64,000 nucleotides of DNA from Candidatus Terasakiella magnetica (GTDB taxonomy: Bacteria; Pseudomonadota; Alphaproteobacteria; Rhodospirillales; Terasakiellaceae), in NCBI RefSeq assembly GCF_900093605.1, contig NZ_FLYE01000003.1:1-64000 (forward strand). Reading direction: 5' to 3'. The position numbers and the translations under genes were made by a program. The notes under the pieces are model-generated. The model did no database searches and was not told the origin of the DNA. It was given only the letters and a program-made list of their open reading frames with translations. Position 1 is the stretch's first letter. Every line of letters starts with the position of its first letter. Shown piece after piece: positions 3,931-18,709 of the stretch.

Positions 3931-6516
3931 GTGCTAGAAGAATATCGCAAACATGTCGAAGAGCGTGCTGCTCTCGGTATCCCACCCCTGCCATTGTCAG
4001 TTGAACAAACTGCGGCGCTTGTTGAACTGTTGAAAAACCCACCGGCTGGTGAAGAAGACACACTTGTTGAGCTTCTGACAAACCGTGTTCCGGCTGGTGT
4101 TGATGATGCAGCGCGCGTTAAAGCGGGCTTCCTTGCACAAGTTGCAAAAGGCGAAGTCGCTTGTTCATTGATTTCCAACGTGAAAGCAACTGAACTTCTT
4201 GGTACCATGCTTGGTGGTTTCAACATTGAGCCGATGATCGAGTTGATCGATGATGCTGAAGTTGGTGAAACTGCTGCTGAAGGCCTGAAGAAAACTCTGT
4301 TGGTGTTTGATTACTTCTTCGACATCAAAGAGCGCGCTGAAAAAGGTTCTGCAAACGCCAAAGCAGTTATGCAGTCTTGGGCGGACGCTGAGTGGTTTAC
4401 ATCACGCGACGAAGTTGCTGAGAGCATGACATTGACTGTCTTCAAAGTAACTGGCGAAACAAACACAGATGACCTGTCACCTGCACCGGACGCCTTTACA
4501 CGTCCTGACATTCCAATGCACGCATTGGCCATGTTGAAAAACGCACGTGATGGCATCACACCTGAAGAAAACGGTGTGCGCGGTCCGGTTAAGTTCATCC
4601 AAGACCTGAAAGAAAAAGGTAACTTGGTTGCTTATGTTGGTGACGTTGTTGGTACGGGTTCTTCTCGTAAGTCTGCAACAAACTCTGTTCTTTGGTGGAC
4701 AGGCGAAGACATTCCATTCGTACCAAACAAACGTTTTGGCGGTGTATGTCTTGGTTCTAAAATCGCACCGATCTTCTATAACACAATGGAAGATTCTGGC
4801 GCGCTACCGATTGAGCTGGATTGTACTAACTTTGATATGGGTGACGAAATCGAACTTCGCCCTTACGAAGGTAAAGCACTGAAGAACGGCGAAGTCGTTT
4901 CTGAATTTACTGTAAAATCAGACGTGATCTTTGATGAAGTTCGCGCTGGTGGCCGTATTAACCTGATCATCGGTCGTGGTTTGACAGCTCGTGCACGTGA
5001 AGCACTGGGTCTGGCGGCATCTGATCTGTTCCGCGTTCCTGCTGAGCCGGAAGATACAGGTAAAGGCTATACGCTTGCACAGAAAATGGTTGGTAAAGCC
5101 TGTGGTCTTGATGAAGGCAAAGGCATTCGTCCGGGCACATATTGTGAGCCTAAGATGACAACTGTTGGCTCGCAAGATACAACAGGTCCAATGACACGTG
5201 ATGAGCTGAAAGATTTGGCTTGTCTTGGTTTCTCTGCTGACTTGGTGATGCAGTCTTTCTGTCACACATCTGCTTATCCTAAGCTTGCTGATGTGAACAC
5301 ACACCAGACTCTGCCTGATTTCATTGAAACACGTGGTGGTGTAGCGCTTCGTCCAATGGATGGTGTTATTCACTCTTGGTTGAACCGTCTTTTGTTGCCA
5401 GATACAGTTGGTACAGGTGGTGATTCACACACACGTTTCCCACTGGGTATCTCTTTCCCTGCTGGTTCTGGCCTCGTGGCCTTTGGTGCTGCAACAGGTG
5501 TTATGCCGTTGGATATGCCTGAATCAGTTTTGGTTAAATTCTCTGGTGAGCTGCAAGAAGGCATCACATTGCGTGATATGGTTAACGCCATTCCTTACTA
5601 CGCAATCAAACAAGGCCTGCTGACAGTAGAAAAAGCCGGTAAGATTAACGTCTTCTCTGGTAAAATCCTTGAGATTGAAGGCCTGCCTGACCTGAAGGTT
5701 GAGCAAGCGTTCGAACTTTCTGATAGTGCGGCTGAGCGTTCTGCAGCGGCTTGTACCGTTCATCTGAACGAAGAGCCAATCATCGAATATATGCGTTCTA
5801 ACATCACCATGATGAAATGGATGATCGCAGAAGGTTATGATGATGCACGTACGCTGAAGCGCCGTATCACAGCTATGGAAGAGTTCATTGCGAACCCAAG
5901 CCTGATGAAGCGTGACGACGATGCAGAATATGCTGCCGTTATCGAAATTAACATGAACGAAATCACTGAGCCGCTTGTAGCCTGTCCAAACGATCCAGAC
6001 GATGTGAAAACATTGGCTGACGTTGCTGGCACAGCAATCGACGAAGTCTTTGTTGGTTCTTGTATGACAAATATCGGTCACTTCCGTGCGGCTGGTACAG
6101 TTCTTGACGGTCTGTCTGATCTTCCAACACGTTTGTGGGTTGCCCCACCAACGAAGATGGATGCAGCAATCCTGACAGAAGAAGGCTATTACTCAATTCT
6201 CGGTAAAACGGGCGCGCGTATGGAAACACCTGGTTGTTCACTCTGTATGGGTAACCAAGCGCAAATCCGTAAAGGGTCAACTGCGATGTCAACTTCAACA
6301 CGTAACTTCCCGAACCGTTTGGGTATTGATACCCTCGTTTACTTGGGTTCTGCTGAATTGGCTGCGGTTTGCGCCATGACAGGTAAGATCCCAACAAATG
6401 AAGAGTATCAAGCTAAAGTGAAGCCTTTGGAATCTCAGGCTGACGAAGTATATCGTTACATGAACTTTGATCAGATCCCTGCTTTTGTTGAAAAAGCAGC
6501 GACAGTTGAAGTTTAA
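3931..6516 (+). CDS. acnB: aconitate hydratase B / 2-methylisocitrate dehydratase
   Basis: Citrate-isocitrate isomerase of the TCA cycle, cytosolic, with a [4Fe-4S] cluster. The 861 residues match the AcnB family (E. coli about 865) from the first residues ([19 protein letters not shown]). The order is HEAT-like N-terminal domain, swivel domain ([16 protein letters not shown] near 175), then the cluster domains. Cluster-ligand cysteines are in [14 protein letters not shown] and [10 protein letters not shown] near the C-terminus. The start is GTG with a strong GGAGG 7 bases upstream. Codon use is biased (ACA for Thr, TGT for Cys), as in pnp and metK, which suggests high expression. It is monocistronic with a strong terminator. 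Confidence 0.97.
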
Positions 6517-6531
6517 GCTTTAAGCTGACAC

Positions 6532-6568
6532 AAAAAAGCCCCGTCGGAGAGATCCGGCGGGGCTTTTT
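6532..6568 (+). terminator. Rho-independent terminator of acnB
   Basis: Ten-pair stem GCCCCGTCGG / CCGGCGGGGC (one T-G wobble) with a 6-base loop, flanked by an A-run and followed by TTTTT. It starts 16 bases after the acnB stop. The A-run upstream lets it work on the minus strand as well, although the minus-strand chemoreceptor ends at 6587. Confidence 0.9.
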
Positions 6569-6586
6569 GTTTGTGCGAATTATAGC

Positions 6587-8275
6587 CTAGACGATACCTT
6601 GAGCCAGCATTTCATCGCTGAGCTCTTCCAGCAGATCAAGCACGTCATGGGCGGCGTGGTTGAGGATATCTAATTCACGCATGGCTTGGTCATGGTCATG
6701 GTTGGCAACGGCTTGTAATACGGCCTTACCATGGTCATGGACACGCGCATGAGGGGCTTCAAGATCGCGATAGACCTTCATATTTTTCACCACTTCACTT
6801 TGGATGGAATAATACCATTTCCCAAGGCGACAGTTGGTATGGGTGGATAGCTCTTCTGGCTTGACGCTAACACGGCCAAGGGCCGCATCAGTCACATGTT
6901 TTCTAAATTTAATGTGATCAAGACGGGCAACTTCCACCAAGGCACGGTCTGATTCAACCTTGGCCCAATCTTCCACCCGGTTGTTGATGAGAGTGTTGGA
7001 TTTATCAACAGCGCTGAAAACCTCATCGACTTTATCTTTATTGCGCGAGCTCATTTCAGCAACTTGGGACACATTGGAAGAAATCTCGCTGGTGGCAGCG
7101 GTTTGCTGGCTCTAAATGGTAGAGACCTCAGCCATTTTTCCGGTCAGGGCGCGGATTTGCTCACCAATGGCATTAATTTCTTGTCCGGTCTCGTTAATGA
7201 TGGATTGGCCCTCATCAACGGCTCTGCCCCCAACTTGCATGGAATCGACAATGCGATCAATATCAGAGCCCAGTGTCTGAACTTGAGCGCGGATGTTTTC
7301 TGTTTCACGCGCGGTTTGGTTGGCAAGGTTTTTCACCTCGCTGGCAACCACGGCAAAGCCTTTTCCGGCTTCACCTGCACGTGCAGACTCGATTGTGGCG
7401 TTTAGGGCAAGCAGGTTGGTTTGTGAGGCAATATCGTCAATGGCTTTAACAATATCATTAATACTGTAAAAGGCCTGTTGCAATTCACCGACTTCGCTGC
7501 CAGCCGTTGCTACAGTTGTGGAAATTTCCGTCATGGTGGAAACCGCGCTGTTTGCCGCACTTACACCTGCTGTTGCAGTATCTTCAACCACATGGGCATC
7601 GTTTGAGGCCCCTTCGGTATTGCGCGCAATCTCACCAACAGAAGCCACCAGTTCTTCAACGGCTGAGGCAATTTCCTGGCTTTGCTCGCGCAAGTGATTA
7701 AGGTCATTTGACAGCTCGGCAATGGTGATCATCGCCTCATTGGTCTCACTGGCGATATTAACGATGACCCGCAGGTTTTGCAGCGCATTATCGCGCATAT
7801 CATCTGCGTTCTGGCTATCCACATAAGAGGTCAGGGCTTGGGAAAGATCAAGCAGGGATACCTTGATGAGAGAGCTGACATGATCGGCCATTTGTTGAGG
7901 GCGCATACGTTCTTTTGTCATCAGGTCTGAGACAATGTTTGAAATCATATGAGCATAGGCACCGATATAGTTTTCCATATCGATGTTATTGTCATTATGG
8001 ATTTTACCGATTTGCTGGGCCCGTCTGAAAAAACCCTCATCAATGCGCCCATTGACCATTTCTTGCCAATATTGGCTTTGATAGCTTGCGCGCTCTTCAA
8101 TGGTGCGGTCATTGAGCAGGGAAGCCGACATGGGATGTTTGGTAATATGCTGATAAAGGGTGGTGGAGGCTTTAGTCAGGTGAGGATCGATTTTTTGTTT
8201 CAGGTTGCTTAAATTGGCTTTGTCCTGAGATGTAATCTGAAAAAAATCAATCAGTTGCGACGTATCATCTTGCAT
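6587..8275 (-). pseudogene. globin-coupled CZB chemoreceptor split by in-frame TAG
   Basis: One reading frame of 562 codons interrupted by TAG at 7112-7114 (codon 388). The first part (387 residues) is a soluble protoglobin-type sensor (about 10-165, proximal-His context [11 protein letters not shown]) and an MCP signalling domain with the tip motif [20 protein letters not shown]; there are no membrane segments. Directly after the stop the frame continues SQQTAATSEISSNVSQVAEM, the expected next heptads of the MCP helix, then a C-terminal CZB zinc domain (HIKFRKHV, CRLGKWYY, PHARVHDHG). CAG to TAG is the simplest explanation. The downstream part has a GTG at 7072 but no good ribosome binding site. 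The start at 8275 (AAAAGGA 9 bases upstream) is preferred over ATG 8302. Such receptors sense oxygen or NO and signal to CheA. Confidence 0.8.
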
Positions 8276-8466
8276 TACCCAGATTCCTTTTCCGGTTGTC
8301 ATATGCGGTCATTAATCGACGTGTTATGAGCTTGGAATAAGGCAGAAATGTGTAATTATCAAGTTTATCTAATATGTAAAATGGTCGCTAAAATTTTATG
8401 AAATATTGGCGGTTTTACCTCTTATTTATCATAAGAAGGATATGCACAATAAGCTGTTGAAAAGAT

Positions 8467-11491: not shown

Positions 11492-11509
11492 ACGTTTACG
11501 TAAACGTAA
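11492..11509. promoter_or_regulatory. operator-like palindrome 1 upstream of the liv cluster
   Basis: ACGTTTACGTAAACGT (11492-11507) is a perfect 16-base palindrome. Overlapping it, 11496-11509 reads TTACGT-AA-ACGTAA, which has the same half-sites as the second site 45 bases downstream. Position, duplication and symmetry point to a transcription factor operator controlling the genes from 11610. The half-site resembles published sites of regulators of branched-chain amino acid or fatty acid breakdown (LiuR-type), recalled from memory and not verified here. Confidence 0.65.
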
Positions 11510-11609: not shown

Positions 11610-12422
11610 ATGACAGGGCAAAATACGCCCATTTTGGAAGTCGATGACATTTCATTGCGTTTTGGCGGTGTGCGCGCGCTTAGCAATGTCAGCTTCAATG
11701 TGAAAAAAGGTGAACTGTTTTCCATCATCGGACCAAACGGTGCGGGGAAAACATCACTTTTGAACTGTGTCTCTGGCCGCTATTCGCCGCAAGAAGGCTC
11801 AATTAAATTCAATGGCAAAGAAGTCACAAAGATGACTCCGAACCACCGTGCTGAATTAGGTATGGGCCGTACGTTTCAGAACTTGGCGCTTTTTGCGCAT
11901 ATGAATGTTTTGGATAACATTATGGTTGGTCGTCACCACTTGATGAAAAATAATTTCCTCACAGGTGGCATGTATTGGTTTGGCGGTGCGCAAAAAGAAG
12001 AATTGATCCACCGTCGCGAAGCTTAAGACATTATCGACTTTTTGGAAATCTCCCATATTCGCAAAAGCGTAGCCGGTACGCTTTCTTATGGTCTGCGCAA
12101 ACGCGTAGAGCTCGCCCGTGCGGTTGCACTTCGTCCTGACCTCCTTTTGCTTGATGAGCCAATGGCGGGGATGAACCTTGAAGAGAAAGAAGATATGGCG
12201 CGCTATATCTGTGATCTCAACGAGGAATGGGGCATGACGGTTGTCATGATTGAGCATGACATGGGTGTTGTCATGGATATTTCCGAGCGTGTGATGGTGT
12301 TGGATTTCGGTAAGAATATTGCTGAAGGCCTGCCTGATGAAATCATGAGTAACGAATACGTTAAACGCGCTTATTTGGGTGTTGACGAAGAAGATGAAGA
12401 ATCTGCGGGCGAGGTAGCTTAA
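11610..12422 (+). pseudogene. LivG-type ABC transporter ATPase split by in-frame TAA
   Basis: A single frame of 270 residues plus one internal stop, TAA at 12024-12026 (codon 139). Before it: Walker A GPNGAGKTS (about 45) and Q-loop GRTFQNLALF. After it the same frame reads DIIDFLEISHIRKSVAGTLS, then the signature LSYGLRKRVELARA, Walker B LLLLDEPMAGMN, the switch His in MIEHDMGVV and an acidic tail. LivG proteins have exactly this continuous sequence, so the stop is a nonsense mutation or a sequence error (for example GAA to TAA). Neither half alone could be a functional ATPase. The start ATG has GGGGAGA upstream. The CoA ligase gene starts one base after the stop. Confidence 0.85.
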
Positions 12423-12423
12423 G

Positions 12424-14361
12424 ATGAGCAGTACTTATTGCGACATTAAAGTGCATGATACTTTTCCAAAGATCTTGCGCCATAATGCACAAAACTGGCC
12501 GAATGAAGTCGCGATGCGCGAAAAAGAATTCGGTATCTGGAATGAATTTACATGGGCTGACTATCATGAAGAAGTGAAACTTCTTTCTGTTGGCATGCAT
12601 GAATTGGGTTGCGGTAAGGGCGATACGGTCGGCCTGCTTGGTAAAAACCGCCCGGAATGGGTTTGGGGTGAGGTTGCTGCACAGGCAATCGGTTCCATGT
12701 CCATGGGTATTTATGAAGATTCATTGGGTCCAGAAGCGGCTTACCTGATCAACTATGCAGAAACGAAAATCGTGATTGCAGAAGATGAAGAACAGGTTGA
12801 TAAGCTGCTGGAACTGGAAGATGTCACTTCTATCAAGCACATCATCTACTGTGACCCACGTGGCATGCGTAAATATGATGACCCACGCCTGATCGACCAT
12901 GCGAAAATTAAAGAAATTGCACGTGAAGCCTTAGCTAAAAATCCAAACGCTTATGATGAGATGTTGGAAAAAGGCAAGCCGGATGATGTTTCCATTTTAT
13001 GTACAACATCTGGGACCACGTCCAACCCGAAACTGATCATGTTGCAGTCTGGTCCTTTCTTGGAGCACTCGCTTTCTTACTTGAATGCCGATCCAAAGAA
13101 ACCGGGCGATAACTATGTTTCTGTTTTGCCGCTGCCATGGATTATGGAGCAGGTTTATGTGGTGTCTCAGGCGTTGATCGCACGTGTTGTGGTGAACTTC
13201 GTTGAAGAACCAGAAACAATGATGGCTGACTTGCGCGAAATTGGCCCAAGCTTTGTTCTTCTTGCGCCGCGTGTGTGGGAAAATATCGCTGCTGACGTTC
13301 GTGCACGTATGATGGACTCCACCAAGTTTAAACAGAAAATGTTTGAATGGGGCATGAAGCTGGGTATGGAAGCTTTGGATCGTGGTGAGCGCTCTAAACT
13401 GGCTGACTTTATCTTGTTCCGCGCTTTGCGTGACCGTCTTGGCTTTACCAACCTGACATCTGCTGCCACAGGTGGTGCGGCGATGGGGCCTGATACATTC
13501 CGCTTCTTCCTTGCCATGGGTGTGCCGCTCAAACAGCTTTATGGTCAAACAGAAATGTCTGGCGCTTACACCATCCACAAAGGCAATGATATTGACTTTG
13601 ATAGTGTAGGTGTACCGTTTGAAGATGTTGATCTGAAGATCATCAATGCGGACGAAGAAGGTGTCGGTGAAATCGTTTCTAAAACGCCGGGTATGTTCCT
13701 TGGTTACTATAAAAACGAAAAAGCCACACAAGAAGACGTTCGTGATGGCTGGATGCATACAGGTGATGCAGGTTACTTCAAGAAAGAGAACGGCCATCTG
13801 GTTGTGATTGACCGGATCAAAGATCTGGCTGAAACATCCACAGGTGTGCGCTACTCCCCACAATTTATTGAGAATAAACTGAAATTCTCACCATTTGTGG
13901 CTGAAGCTGTGATCCTTGGTAAAGACCGTCCAGACTTGGCTGCTTTGATTTGTATCCGTTTCTCCATCGTTTCAAAATGGTGTGAGCAAAAACAAATCGC
14001 GTTTACCAACTACACGAACATCTCTGCATTGCCGGAAGTTTATGCCGCTGTGAAAGATGAAATTACCAAGGTCAACGCCAGCTTGCCAGAAGCCCAACAA
14101 ATTCAGAAATTTGTACTGCTTTATAAAGAACTGGATGCGGATGACGGCGAATTGACACGTACACGTAAAGTACGTCGTAACGTGGTTGCTGAGAAATACG
14201 AAGAAGTTATTGATGCGATCTATAACGGTGATGAGAAAGTTCACATCGATACCATGATTACGTTCCAGGATGGTTCGAAGTCACGCATCGTAACCGACCT
14301 TAAAGTGGAAACAATGAATACAGCTTCCGCAATTTCAACAAATAAAGCTGCGGCTGAATAA
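12424..14361 (+). CDS. AMP-binding acyl-CoA ligase (long-chain fatty acid type)
   Basis: 645 residues of the ANL superfamily, forming an acyl-adenylate and then an acyl-CoA. P-loop TTSGTTSNPK near residue 195, the LYGQTEMSGAY adenylate motif near 375, GDAGYFKKENGHLVVIDRIKDL near 440 and a C-terminal Lys-containing segment TRTRKVRR near 580. It resembles FadD-like ligases commonly found inside Liv-type transporter clusters of alpha- and betaproteobacteria. Its position between the ATPase gene and the permease genes implies it activates the imported substrate, perhaps an aromatic or aliphatic carboxylic acid; this is inference. ATG 12424 follows the upstream stop by one base. Confidence 0.85.
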   Translation: MSSTYCDIKVHDTFPKILRHNAQNWPNEVAMREKEFGIWNEFTWADYHEEVKLLSVGMHELGCGKGDTVGLLGKNRPEWVWGEVAAQAIGSMSMGIYEDSLGPEAAYLINYAETKIVIAEDEEQVDKLLELEDVTSIKHIIYCDPRGMRKYDDPRLIDHAKIKEIAREALAKNPNAYDEMLEKGKPDDVSILCTTSGTTSNPKLIMLQSGPFLEHSLSYLNADPKKPGDNYVSVLPLPWIMEQVYVVSQALIARVVVNFVEEPETMMADLREIGPSFVLLAPRVWENIAADVRARMMDSTKFKQKMFEWGMKLGMEALDRGERSKLADFILFRALRDRLGFTNLTSAATGGAAMGPDTFRFFLAMGVPLKQLYGQTEMSGAYTIHKGNDIDFDSVGVPFEDVDLKIINADEEGVGEIVSKTPGMFLGYYKNEKATQEDVRDGWMHTGDAGYFKKENGHLVVIDRIKDLAETSTGVRYSPQFIENKLKFSPFVAEAVILGKDRPDLAALICIRFSIVSKWCEQKQIAFTNYTNISALPEVYAAVKDEITKVNASLPEAQQIQKFVLLYKELDADDGELTRTRKVRRNVVAEKYEEVIDAIYNGDEKVHIDTMITFQDGSKSRIVTDLKVETMNTASAISTNKAAAE

Positions 14362-14375
14362 GGGAGACGATTGAA

Positions 14376-15269
14376 ATGAACTGGGATCTACTTAGCCAGC
14401 TGCTATTGAACGGGCTGATCATTGGCTGCCTTTACGGCGTTGTCGCGATGTGTTTCGTTCTTATTTATAAATCCACACAAATTGTGAACTTTGCCCAAGG
14501 TGAATTCCTGCTGATCGGTGCATGGGTGTGCTGGTGGTTCTTAACCACATGGGAATTACCGTTTGTTATCGGCTTCCTCTTCACGCTGGCCTTTATGACG
14601 GTCTTTGGGATTATCCTACAAACAGTGGTGCTGCGCCCGATGATTGGCGAGCCGATCATTTCGGTGATCATGGTAACCATCGGTTTGAGCCTGTTTTTCC
14701 AAGCGGGTATGAAATGGATGTTCGGGGTTGATGTACAGCCTTTCCCACAAGTGTTTGAACAGGAAAATGTCGAGATCTTCGGCATGATGATCCAGACGGC
14801 CTATATCATGAGTTTGGTGATTTCACTCTTCATCATGGTCGGTTTTGCATGGTTCTTTAAATCTTCAAAACACGGTCTGGCCATGCGTGCAACAGCCTTT
14901 GACCAACAAGTGGCACAGTCACTGGGTATTTCGGTTAAGCATGTATTTGCCATGGCATGGGCGATCTCCGCTGTTGTATCTGCGGTCGCTGGTGTGGTTA
15001 TCGGTATTGTAAACGGCGTCTCTGATACGCTGGCCTTTATCGGGATTAAAGTATTCCCGGCCGTTATCCTGGGTGGGCTTGACTCCATCATCGGTGCCAT
15101 TGTCGGTGGCATCATCATCGGTCTGTTGGAAAACTTTGCAGAATATGCAGATGGTCAATGGTTCCAAGTCGGCAACCTTTACACAATCGCGCCGTTCTAT
15201 GTGTTGGTTATCATCTTGATGATCAAACCATACGGTCTGTTTGGTACAAAAGATATTGAGCGAGTATAA
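14376..15269 (+). CDS. Liv-type ABC transporter permease (LivH family)
   Basis: 297 residues, mostly hydrophobic with about eight membrane segments. It shows family signatures: LLNGLIIGCLYGVVAMCFVL at the N-terminus, the IYKSTQIVNFAQGEF motif near 30 and the permease loop FFKSSKHGLAMRATAFDQQVAQSLG near 170. It is one half of the inner-membrane channel, partnering with the next gene. An AGGGAGA ribosome binding site precedes ATG 14376. The gene is 14 bases after the CoA ligase, consistent with one operon. Confidence 0.9.
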   Translation: MNWDLLSQLLLNGLIIGCLYGVVAMCFVLIYKSTQIVNFAQGEFLLIGAWVCWWFLTTWELPFVIGFLFTLAFMTVFGIILQTVVLRPMIGEPIISVIMVTIGLSLFFQAGMKWMFGVDVQPFPQVFEQENVEIFGMMIQTAYIMSLVISLFIMVGFAWFFKSSKHGLAMRATAFDQQVAQSLGISVKHVFAMAWAISAVVSAVAGVVIGIVNGVSDTLAFIGIKVFPAVILGGLDSIIGAIVGGIIIGLLENFAEYADGQWFQVGNLYTIAPFYVLVIILMIKPYGLFGTKDIERV

Positions 15270-15273
15270 TTAG

Positions 15274-16362
15274 ATGGCTGGTTATAACATGATGCGGTGC
15301 GGTGAATTCCGCACCACCTACGAGAAAGACACAACCATCTTTCCGACCCCTATGTCTAAAAAGTTTGCAATTTTGGGTGTGTTGCTTTGCATCGTAGCCC
15401 CTTTGCAAATCGGTGAATTTGAATTCGTCAGCGACTTTATGTTGTCTTTGATGATCCAGATTGGCTACATGTCAATTGGTGCACTTGGTCTTAATATTCT
15501 GGTTGGTTTTACAGGCCAGATTTCATTGGGGCACGCGGCATTCTTTGGTTTTGGTGCTTTTGCATCTGCGTGGATGAGTAACTCATTCTCAATTCCGGTT
15601 TTCTTCTCTATTCCATTGGCAGGTGTTCTGACAATGGCGGTAGGCATGATGTTCGGGATGCCCGCTGCGCGTATTAAAGGGCTTTACCTTGCCATCGCAA
15701 CGCTTGCGTCACAGTTCATCTTGGAAGATTTCTTTGCCCGTGCAGAATGGTTTACAGGTGGTTCTGCTGGTGCACTTGCAAACCCATTTGAAATCTTTGG
15801 CTTAGTGCTTGATGGTGATCGCAGCTACTACTATGTGGTTCTCGCTTATATGGTGGTGATGTTCATCGTGGCGGCAAACCTGATGCGTTCACGCGATGGT
15901 CGTGCGTTTGTTGCCGTGCGTGATCACTATCTATCTGCAGAAGTCATGGGGATTAACCTGACATGGTATCGTGTTCTGTCTTTCGGCATTTCCTCGTTCT
16001 ATGCAGGTATCGCCGGGGCACTTTACGCTCACTACTTACAATATGTATCTGTTGAAAGCTTCAACCTGCTTTTGTCGATCCAGTTTATCGGCATGATCAT
16101 TATCGGTGGTCTTGGTAGCGTTATGGGCTCTTTGATGGGGACTATCTTCATGGTGTTGCTGCCAGAAATTATGCAGGGTGCTGCAGGTCTTGCAGCAGGC
16201 ATTCCAGGTGTTGGTTCCAGCTTTATGGACGGCATCAACTTCTTAAAAGAAATGACGGTTGGTTTAGCAATTGTCCTGTTCCTTATGTTTGAACCGGACG
16301 GGCTGGCTCACCGCTGGCGGATGATTAAGGCTTATTGGAAGCTTTATCCATTCTCTTACTAA
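15274..16362 (+). CDS. Liv-type ABC transporter permease (LivM family)
   Basis: 362 residues, second membrane subunit. About 35 hydrophilic residues precede the first membrane helix. Typical features are SIGALGLNILVGFTGQISLGHAAFFGFGAFA (around 65-95), PAARIKGLYLAIATLA and the cytoplasmic coupling loop RDGRAFVAVRDHYLSAEVMGIN near 205. It starts four bases after livH ends, so the two are translationally linked. It partners with LivH, the broken LivG-type ATPase and LivF. Confidence 0.9.
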   Translation: MAGYNMMRCGEFRTTYEKDTTIFPTPMSKKFAILGVLLCIVAPLQIGEFEFVSDFMLSLMIQIGYMSIGALGLNILVGFTGQISLGHAAFFGFGAFASAWMSNSFSIPVFFSIPLAGVLTMAVGMMFGMPAARIKGLYLAIATLASQFILEDFFARAEWFTGGSAGALANPFEIFGLVLDGDRSYYYVVLAYMVVMFIVAANLMRSRDGRAFVAVRDHYLSAEVMGINLTWYRVLSFGISSFYAGIAGALYAHYLQYVSVESFNLLLSIQFIGMIIIGGLGSVMGSLMGTIFMVLLPEIMQGAAGLAAGIPGVGSSFMDGINFLKEMTVGLAIVLFLMFEPDGLAHRWRMIKAYWKLYPFSY

Positions 16363-16461: not shown

Positions 16462-17736
16462 ATGCGCAAATTACTTACAGGCCTTTTGGCTACATCAACG
16501 GCAGTTGCTTTTGCCGGTTCTGCATTGGCTGCTGACAAGCTTCTTATTGCAAACTTGGCTGATCTGACAGGCCCAACAGCATCTGTATCAAAGCCTTTTA
16601 CACAAGGTAAAAAAGATGCTGCTGCATATGTTAACGCTAATGGCGGTATTGCAGGTAAAATGGTTGAACTTGATACAGTTGATTATGGCTATAAAGCGCC
16701 ACAAGCAATTGGTCAGTACAAAAAATGGAAGTCTGCTGGCGCAGTTGCTATCCAAGGTTGGGGTACGGCTGATACAGAAGCTCTCGTTGGCTTTGTTGGT
16801 CGCGACAAAATCCCATATTTCTCTGCTTCTTACTCAGCTCACTTGCAAGACCCAACTGGTAAATCCGAGCATGTGAAAAAAGGCGCACCTTACAACTTCT
16901 TCGCTGGCCCATCTTATTCTGATGGCGCACGTGCTGTAATCCAGTGGGCTGCGGCTGATGCGAAAGAAAAAGGCATTGCTAAGCCTAAGTTCGTATTCAT
17001 GGGCGATAACCACCCCTACCCGAACGCTGCGAAAAAAGCGGCTCAAGGCTATGCAGCTGACCTTGGTTTCGAGGTTGGCAACAACATCGTGTACTCTATG
17101 AAAGCTGGTGACTTTAAAGCACAGTGTCTGACACTTAAAGAGTCTGGCGCTCAGTATGCTTACCTTGCAAACACGGGTGGTTCAGGCATTTCTTTGCTTA
17201 AATCATGTAAGTCTGTTGGTGCTGAAGTTCAGTTCATCACAAACGTTTGGGGTATGGACGAAAACGTAATGAAAGCTGCCGGTTCTGCAGCCAATGGCGT
17301 TGTCTTCCCAATGGGCGCTGCTGCCTTTAACGCAGACGTACCTGGCATGAAAATGGTTAAAGCGATTAACGCTGCTGGTTCTAACCAAGCACACCACAAT
17401 GTTCACTATGTACGTGGCGTATGTTCATTCTTCTACATGAAAGAAGCAATGGAATGGGCTAATGCAAATGGTGGCATTAAAGGTCCAAACATCAAGGAAG
17501 GCATGTACCAGAAAAAAGACTGGATCCCTGCTGGCCTTGAAGGCGTATGCCCAGCTGGGACATGGACAAACACTGACCACCGCGGTCACATGGATGTTTA
17601 TGTTTACCAAGCAAACGTAAAAGGTAACCCAGATCCATCTAAGTCTGTTCCAGAATTGCTGAAAGACGGCACAATTGGCATGACTAAACTGTTTGATGCG
17701 AAGCTCGAGCGTAAAGCTGAGTGGCTTGGCCTCTAA
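16462..17736 (+). CDS. periplasmic substrate-binding protein of the Liv-type transporter
   Basis: 424 residues with a signal peptide (MRKLLTGLLATSTAVAFAGSALA, cleavage before ADK). The mature part starts LLIANLADLTGPTASVSKPF and has the bilobal family-6 pattern (Peripla_BP_6), including DYGYKAPQAIGQYKKW and a C-terminal DWIPAGLEGVCPAGTW segment. It delivers ligand to LivH/LivM. Related proteins near CoA ligases are often annotated as branched-chain amino acid binders, but the ligase context argues for a carboxylic acid ligand. Codon use is that of a highly expressed gene. A 99-base leader with its own AAGGGAGA site separates it from livM. Confidence 0.88.
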   Translation: MRKLLTGLLATSTAVAFAGSALAADKLLIANLADLTGPTASVSKPFTQGKKDAAAYVNANGGIAGKMVELDTVDYGYKAPQAIGQYKKWKSAGAVAIQGWGTADTEALVGFVGRDKIPYFSASYSAHLQDPTGKSEHVKKGAPYNFFAGPSYSDGARAVIQWAAADAKEKGIAKPKFVFMGDNHPYPNAAKKAAQGYAADLGFEVGNNIVYSMKAGDFKAQCLTLKESGAQYAYLANTGGSGISLLKSCKSVGAEVQFITNVWGMDENVMKAAGSAANGVVFPMGAAAFNADVPGMKMVKAINAAGSNQAHHNVHYVRGVCSFFYMKEAMEWANANGGIKGPNIKEGMYQKKDWIPAGLEGVCPAGTWTNTDHRGHMDVYVYQANVKGNPDPSKSVPELLKDGTIGMTKLFDAKLERKAEWLGL

Positions 17737-17881: not shown

Positions 17882-18709
17882 ATGGCAGAGGCAGCTTTAG
17901 CGCAAGAAAACGCAGACCTGATGCTAAGCGTAAACAACATCGAAGTTGTTTATAACGAGGTTATTTTGGTACTTCGCGGCGTGTCTTTGGATGTGCCAAA
18001 AGGAGCGCTTGTCACTTTGCTCGGTCCAAACGGTGCCGGTAAATCAACAACCTTGAAAGCCATCTCCGGTCTTTTGGGTACAGAAGACGGTGAAGTTACC
18101 CGTGGTGATGTGGTTTATAAAGGCCAAAACATTGCAAACGGAAGCCCAGACAAAACCGTAAAAGACGGTTTGTTTCAGGTGATGGAAGGTCGTCGTATCA
18201 TTGAAGATATGACAGTGATCGAAAACCTGCGTCTTGGTGCATATACACGTACCGATAGCCAAAGCGAGATCAAGGCTGATATCGAAAAGGTTTTCCACTA
18301 TTTCCCACGTCTTAAAGAACGCACAGGTCTTGCGGGCTACCTTTCTGGTGGTGAGCAGCAGATGCTGGCGATTGGTCGTGCGATTATGTCTAAGCCGGAT
18401 ATGATTTTGCTGGATGAGCCTTCAATGGGTCTGTCGCCGCTTTTGGTGAAAGAAGTGTTTGAAATCATCCGCACCTTGAATAAAGAACTCGGTATTACAA
18501 TGCTGCTGGTTGAGCAAAACGCCAACATGGCCCTAAAACATTGTGATTACGGTTACATCATGGAGTCAGGCAAGGTCGTGCTTGATGGTACCCGTGAAGA
18601 GCTGCTGAGCAACGAAGATGTGAAAGAATTCTATCTTGGTGGCGGTGGTGAAGAACGTAAGTCGTTCAAAAACCTGAAATCTTACAAACGTCGTAAGCGT
18701 TGGTTGTAA
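17882..18709 (+). CDS. Liv-type ABC transporter ATPase (LivF family)
   Basis: 275 residues, complete ATPase: Walker A GPNGAGKST near 49, Q-loop FQVMEGRRII, signature LSGGEQQMLAIGRA near 155, Walker B MILLDEPSMGLSP and switch His region in LLVEQNANMAL. The C-terminus has a basic tail (KSYKRRKRW) not always present in LivF. It is the second ATPase of the transporter; with the LivG-type gene broken it would be the only intact one. It is preceded by a 145-base spacer with a hairpin and an AGGGAAAAGGAAA ribosome binding site. Confidence 0.9.
   Translation: MAEAALAQENADLMLSVNNIEVVYNEVILVLRGVSLDVPKGALVTLLGPNGAGKSTTLKAISGLLGTEDGEVTRGDVVYKGQNIANGSPDKTVKDGLFQVMEGRRIIEDMTVIENLRLGAYTRTDSQSEIKADIEKVFHYFPRLKERTGLAGYLSGGEQQMLAIGRAIMSKPDMILLDEPSMGLSPLLVKEVFEIIRTLNKELGITMLLVEQNANMALKHCDYGYIMESGKVVLDGTREELLSNEDVKEFYLGGGGEERKSFKNLKSYKRRKRWL

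Follow-up and report, generated by a model that had tools for sequence, protein, structure and literature searches.

The window, meaning the whole 64,000-nucleotide stretch of the Candidatus Terasakiella magnetica genome that was analysed (contig NZ_FLYE01000003.1, positions 1 to 64,000), carries a six-gene operon in the order livG-acs-livH-livM-sbp-livF, the first gene of which is interrupted by a single in-frame stop codon. A chemoreceptor gene on the opposite strand also contains an in-frame stop, and a frameshifted gene lies farther along the same contig (C3), outside the window. The features discussed below are listed here.

11492..11507: 16-base palindrome upstream of livG, a probable regulator site that recurs elsewhere in the genome
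11541-11555: weaker copy of the palindrome
11610..12422, plus strand: livG, LivG-like ABC ATPase gene with a single in-frame stop, the frame being open on both sides of the TAA
12024..12026, plus strand: in-frame TAA, codon 139, with glutamate at this position in all relatives examined
12424..14361, plus strand: acs, AMP-binding acyl-CoA ligase, second gene of the operon (PF00501 and PF23562)
14376..15269, plus strand: LivH-like permease, open (PF02653, BPD_transp_2)
15274..16362, plus strand: LivM-like permease, open (PF02653, BPD_transp_2)
16462..17736, plus strand: periplasmic binding protein, sbp, open (PF13458, Peripla_BP_6)
17882..18709, plus strand: second ABC ATPase, LivF-like (PF00005; best NCBIfam model LivF at 221.2 bits, under its cut-off of 441)
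6587-8302, minus strand: protoglobin-MCP-CZB chemoreceptor gene with an in-frame TAG in the signalling domain (stop at 7112-7114)
C3 69549-69868, outside the window: YbaB-family gene, frameshifted (PF02575 in the orthologue of Terasakiella sp. SH-1)

The stop in livG, at 12024-12026, is codon 139 of a 270-codon frame that runs from the ATG at 11610 to the TAA at 12420-12422. Read with X at the stop, this frame matches PF00005 at 117.9 bits and PF12399 at 33.9 bits, as a HAAT-type (LivG-like) ATPase does, and the two domains (ABC_tran at residues 24-186 and BCA_ABC_TP_C at residues 236-260) make up one continuous ABC ATPase. The halves alone cover complementary positions of the ABC_tran profile, 1-80 and 89-137, and this, together with the continuity of the X-read frame, marks the locus as one gene with one stop and not as two genes. 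That the continuity exceeds chance follows from five congeners, which align across the stop without a break at 91-95% identity. The initial annotation had described a LivG-type ATPase gene split by an in-frame ochre codon within an otherwise intact transport operon, and both parts of that description hold, as the ATPase domains span the frame around the TAA and the remaining five genes of the operon have open frames. The term "LivG-like" is the right one because the protein scores 254.9 bits with the NCBIfam LivG equivalog NF008449, below the cut-off of 362.

Comparison with relatives was made in two sets, with Terasakiella pusilla counted in both. The first comprised 60 genomes, one per species and including the studied one, of which 25 gave a livG match at E 1e-80 or better; in all 28 rows from the 24 related genomes the stop site holds glutamate (GAA or GAG), and none of these rows is interrupted ahead of residue 252 of the aligned frame, in other words short of the C-terminus. 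The second comprised named loci, and among the best 80 of 578 the site is glutamate in every case (54 GAG, 26 GAA) and the aligned part of livG carries no stop. A search for conservation of the TAA in independent genomes thus came out negative in the 28 rows from 24 genomes and in the best 80 of 578 loci. All five congeners (G001-G005) have an uninterrupted livG, so that the gene is broken here and intact in relatives, the pattern of a pseudogene arising by nonsense mutation. As the stop is missing from every relative examined, conserved recoding and a conserved split gene are rejected. The best named locus match to the operon is that of T. pusilla DSM 6293, and a tree of the six operon proteins places the studied genome as sister to Terasakiella sp. 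SH-1 (G005) with support of 1.000. The latter is a magnetotactic bacterium sequenced with PacBio and Illumina (PMC6819731). The literature searched contained no treatment of livG, nonsense mutation and pseudogene together.

The operon itself is a widely conserved uptake-and-activation unit: of the best 80 of 578 named loci, 71 have all six genes in this order and orientation, and the remaining nine show the leading part of the operon, their contigs ending no more than about 4.5 kb past livG. Like HAAT importers with LivG and LivF, it combines ABC_tran and BCA_ABC_TP_C domains and encodes two ATPases, two permeases and a binding protein together; unlike them, it has an AMP-binding ligase between the first ATPase and the permeases, a stop in livG and a livG product under the LivG equivalog cut-off. 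The genes had also been credited with the codon bias of highly expressed genes, and this stood for only some of them. When effective numbers of codons were ranked among 416 ORFs, the binding protein (4th percentile), livF (9th) and acs (17th) came out low; livM (31st) and livG (50th) held middle ranks, and livH (94th) had a high value and thus little bias.

The palindrome upstream of livG is repeated at six further sites in the genome; forward and reverse matches numbered 15, as against one for the reversed control. The five of these six places that were viewed adjoin genes for an acyl-CoA dehydrogenase, an IcmF-like protein, an enoyl-CoA hydratase, thioesterases and a MerR-type regulator, and the sequence is LiuR-like. 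A palindrome shared within one genome beside acyl-CoA catabolism and MerR-type genes is the arrangement expected of a LiuR regulon. In Proteobacteria, LiuR is a MerR-type regulator of branched-chain amino acid use (PMC5343134). The operon probably serves to import short or branched carboxylic acids and activate them with CoA under a LiuR-like MerR regulator. The proposal is weakened by the distribution of the palindrome, which was seen upstream of the operon in the studied genome (G000), G002 and G005 but not in G001, G003 and G004, and is hence not conserved across the genus.

Private codon changes were counted in a comparison of G000, G005 and G004 that covered 168 orthologues and 56,088 codons, and genes with at least 20 such changes were ranked by nonsynonymous share. 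The studied lineage has 6942 synonymous and 1001 nonsynonymous changes. In livG there are 28 and 4, the latter including the stop, giving a share of 0.125 and rank 63 of 149 genes. Ranks for the downstream genes are 66 for livH, 128 for livM, 69 for sbp and 109 for livF, and within the operon only acs is raised (82 synonymous, 28 nonsynonymous; share 0.255, rank 12 of 149). A six-genome count also marks acs in the studied genome, with 23 nonsynonymous and 23 synonymous changes that are scattered, and in the SH-1 lineage it is livH that is raised (32 synonymous, 13 nonsynonymous; rank 7 of 148). Apart from its stop, livG is under normal constraint, with a share near the median, and the suggestion of relaxed selection on it found no backing. 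Because the remainder of the gene shows no relaxation, the lesion should be either recent or a sequence error, and normal constraint fits the one as well as the other.

The studied genome is a 3.68 Mb draft in 47 contigs with a completeness of 100 and a contamination of 0.21. Among 231 ORFs compared with G005 over about 332 kb, two clear lesions were found: the livG stop and, in ybaB, the shift of one base within a run of A (C3 near 69720), beyond which the frame resumes at more than 90% identity. A weaker comparison, below the 55% cut-off applied to the 231 ORFs, revealed an in-frame TGA in a 145-residue ORF on C1 near 259.8 kb, which is open in G005 at 54.6% identity; it appears hemerythrin-like by eye, and its G005 orthologue has no Pfam match. 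Further rows from the homology scans against G005 and G004 were dismissed by eye as lying upstream of the true start, antisense or in weak ORFs. The matched stretches of the relatives contain flagged lesions as well: in G005 the livH gene of this operon is shifted by one base past residue 267 of its 297 (locus L233 near 4807), and a 754-residue ORF carries one more flagged frameshift; G004 has four flagged rows, none judged real.

The initial annotation had also placed a nonsense codon in a chemoreceptor gene, and this is confirmed by the TAG at 7112-7114, in frame on the minus strand and 4.9 kb from the livG stop. The site is leucine in 12, valine in two, alanine in one and a gap in two of 17 aligned homologous rows; among the congeners no close orthologue was found, the best match being 43%. 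A coding-potential scan over 532 kb of the studied genome flagged 24 stops, 22 of which looked by eye like neighbouring genes that each have a start, so that livG and the chemoreceptor remained; with stricter thresholds the scan missed both. In G004, the coding-potential scan noted an in-frame TAG behind sigma-70 region 2 (C32 near 79306). Lesions in the stretches examined are thus few and of mixed type, which fits an ordinary pseudogene load and is also compatible with isolated errors. A genome full of errors is rejected on this small number in those stretches.

Taken together, these comparisons suggest that the LivG-like ATPase of a conserved operon was probably inactivated in one Terasakiella genome by a recent nonsense mutation of a single base. 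A substitution private to this genome among those examined would have created the TAA, and the 138-residue product predicted from it would keep Walker A and the Q-loop and lose the signature, Walker B and the C-terminal domain, these motifs presumably being divided between the two halves in this way. No working LivG/LivF pair could then form, and the importer would be off. The ATG of acs stands one nucleotide behind the end of livG, and because about 400 bases before it would go untranslated, loss of translational coupling and polarity would be expected to reduce expression of the downstream genes. The gene is an ordinary pseudogene candidate, a reading that the few lesions of mixed type favour. 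It shares with recent bacterial nonsense pseudogenes the single substitution, its restriction to one genome and otherwise normal constraint, and differs from them in general only in lying within a conserved operon.

A base-call or assembly error, with an intact livG in the living strain, is a real possibility that falls short of probable. The stop is private to one assembly and the rest of the gene is under normal constraint, and ybaB, a conserved gene on the same contig, carries a one-base homopolymer shift; a lesion in a run of A is a typical error, which makes errors elsewhere more credible and so counts against a real lesion in livG. The closeness of the chemoreceptor stop likewise counts against recent inactivation. 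However, livG has a substitution, and one well away from contig ends, where ybaB has a homopolymer indel, and two clear lesions in 231 ORFs, in a draft of such completeness and low contamination, are few for an error-prone sequence. Rather than a new mechanism, the stop most likely reflects either ordinary, recent gene breakage or a mistake in sequencing.

Retention of function, whether by readthrough, by fragments or by a borrowed ATPase, is very unlikely even when these routes are taken together. Low-level readthrough had been put forward at the outset, and it or the separate synthesis and assembly of two fragments might draw on the frame being kept on both sides of the stop and on the conserved C-terminal half, but such continued work of livG is highly improbable. 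No relative examined has the stop or a split livG, and TAA terminates most of the ORFs viewed here. The loci of all 42 tRNA hits in the studied genome (150 of 181 candidates were scored) gave only sense anticodons with ARAGORN and none that would read a stop (TTA, CTA, TCA), in a set that may be incomplete, since SH-1 is reported to have 50 tRNAs (PMC6819731); at one weak hit, C22:80847 with 29.2 bits, ARAGORN called nothing. Neither a suppressor tRNA nor conservation of the stop among relatives, the two marks of readthrough or recoding, was thus seen, and a suppressor is rejected with the same reservation about the set. Restart behind the stop is unlikely as well, because the first in-frame candidate start, TTG at 12042, has no visible ribosome site before it. 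That transport continues through LivF alone or through an ATPase borrowed from another Liv-type system is barely credible. LivF is intact, and the genome encodes other Liv-type ATPases at C2:113383 (40%), C44:5481 (35%) and C8:11979 (33%); yet none is close, the best paralogue being only 40% identical, and a second livG copy of about 60%, present in G001-G004, was not found for G000 or G005 at E 1e-80. With no stop-reading anticodon called, backup by readthrough or by a close copy is accordingly unlikely. Moreover, in 71 of the best 80 of 578 loci all six genes are found side by side, which argues that LivG is normally part of the set.

A broader reading, in which the clade of the studied genome and SH-1 is losing the operon by separate hits, is unlikely. 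It draws on the stop in livG and the raised acs in the former, on the frameshift in livH and the raised share of that gene in the latter, and on the lack of a livG copy of about 60% in either; two or three lesions make parallel loss no more than a lead. If true, it would mark a change of diet in the lineage. The stop in livG changes no general view. If real, it would add one more recently broken transporter subunit, offer a natural test of whether a Liv-type importer can do without one of its two ATPases, and call for caution in predicting substrates from this genome; if an error, it would matter for annotation only. As a separate observation, acs of T. pusilla (G001), which stands outside the pair formed by G000 and SH-1, shows an in-frame gap of 36 residues when aligned with the other five congeners, within 6233-8056 of its locus.
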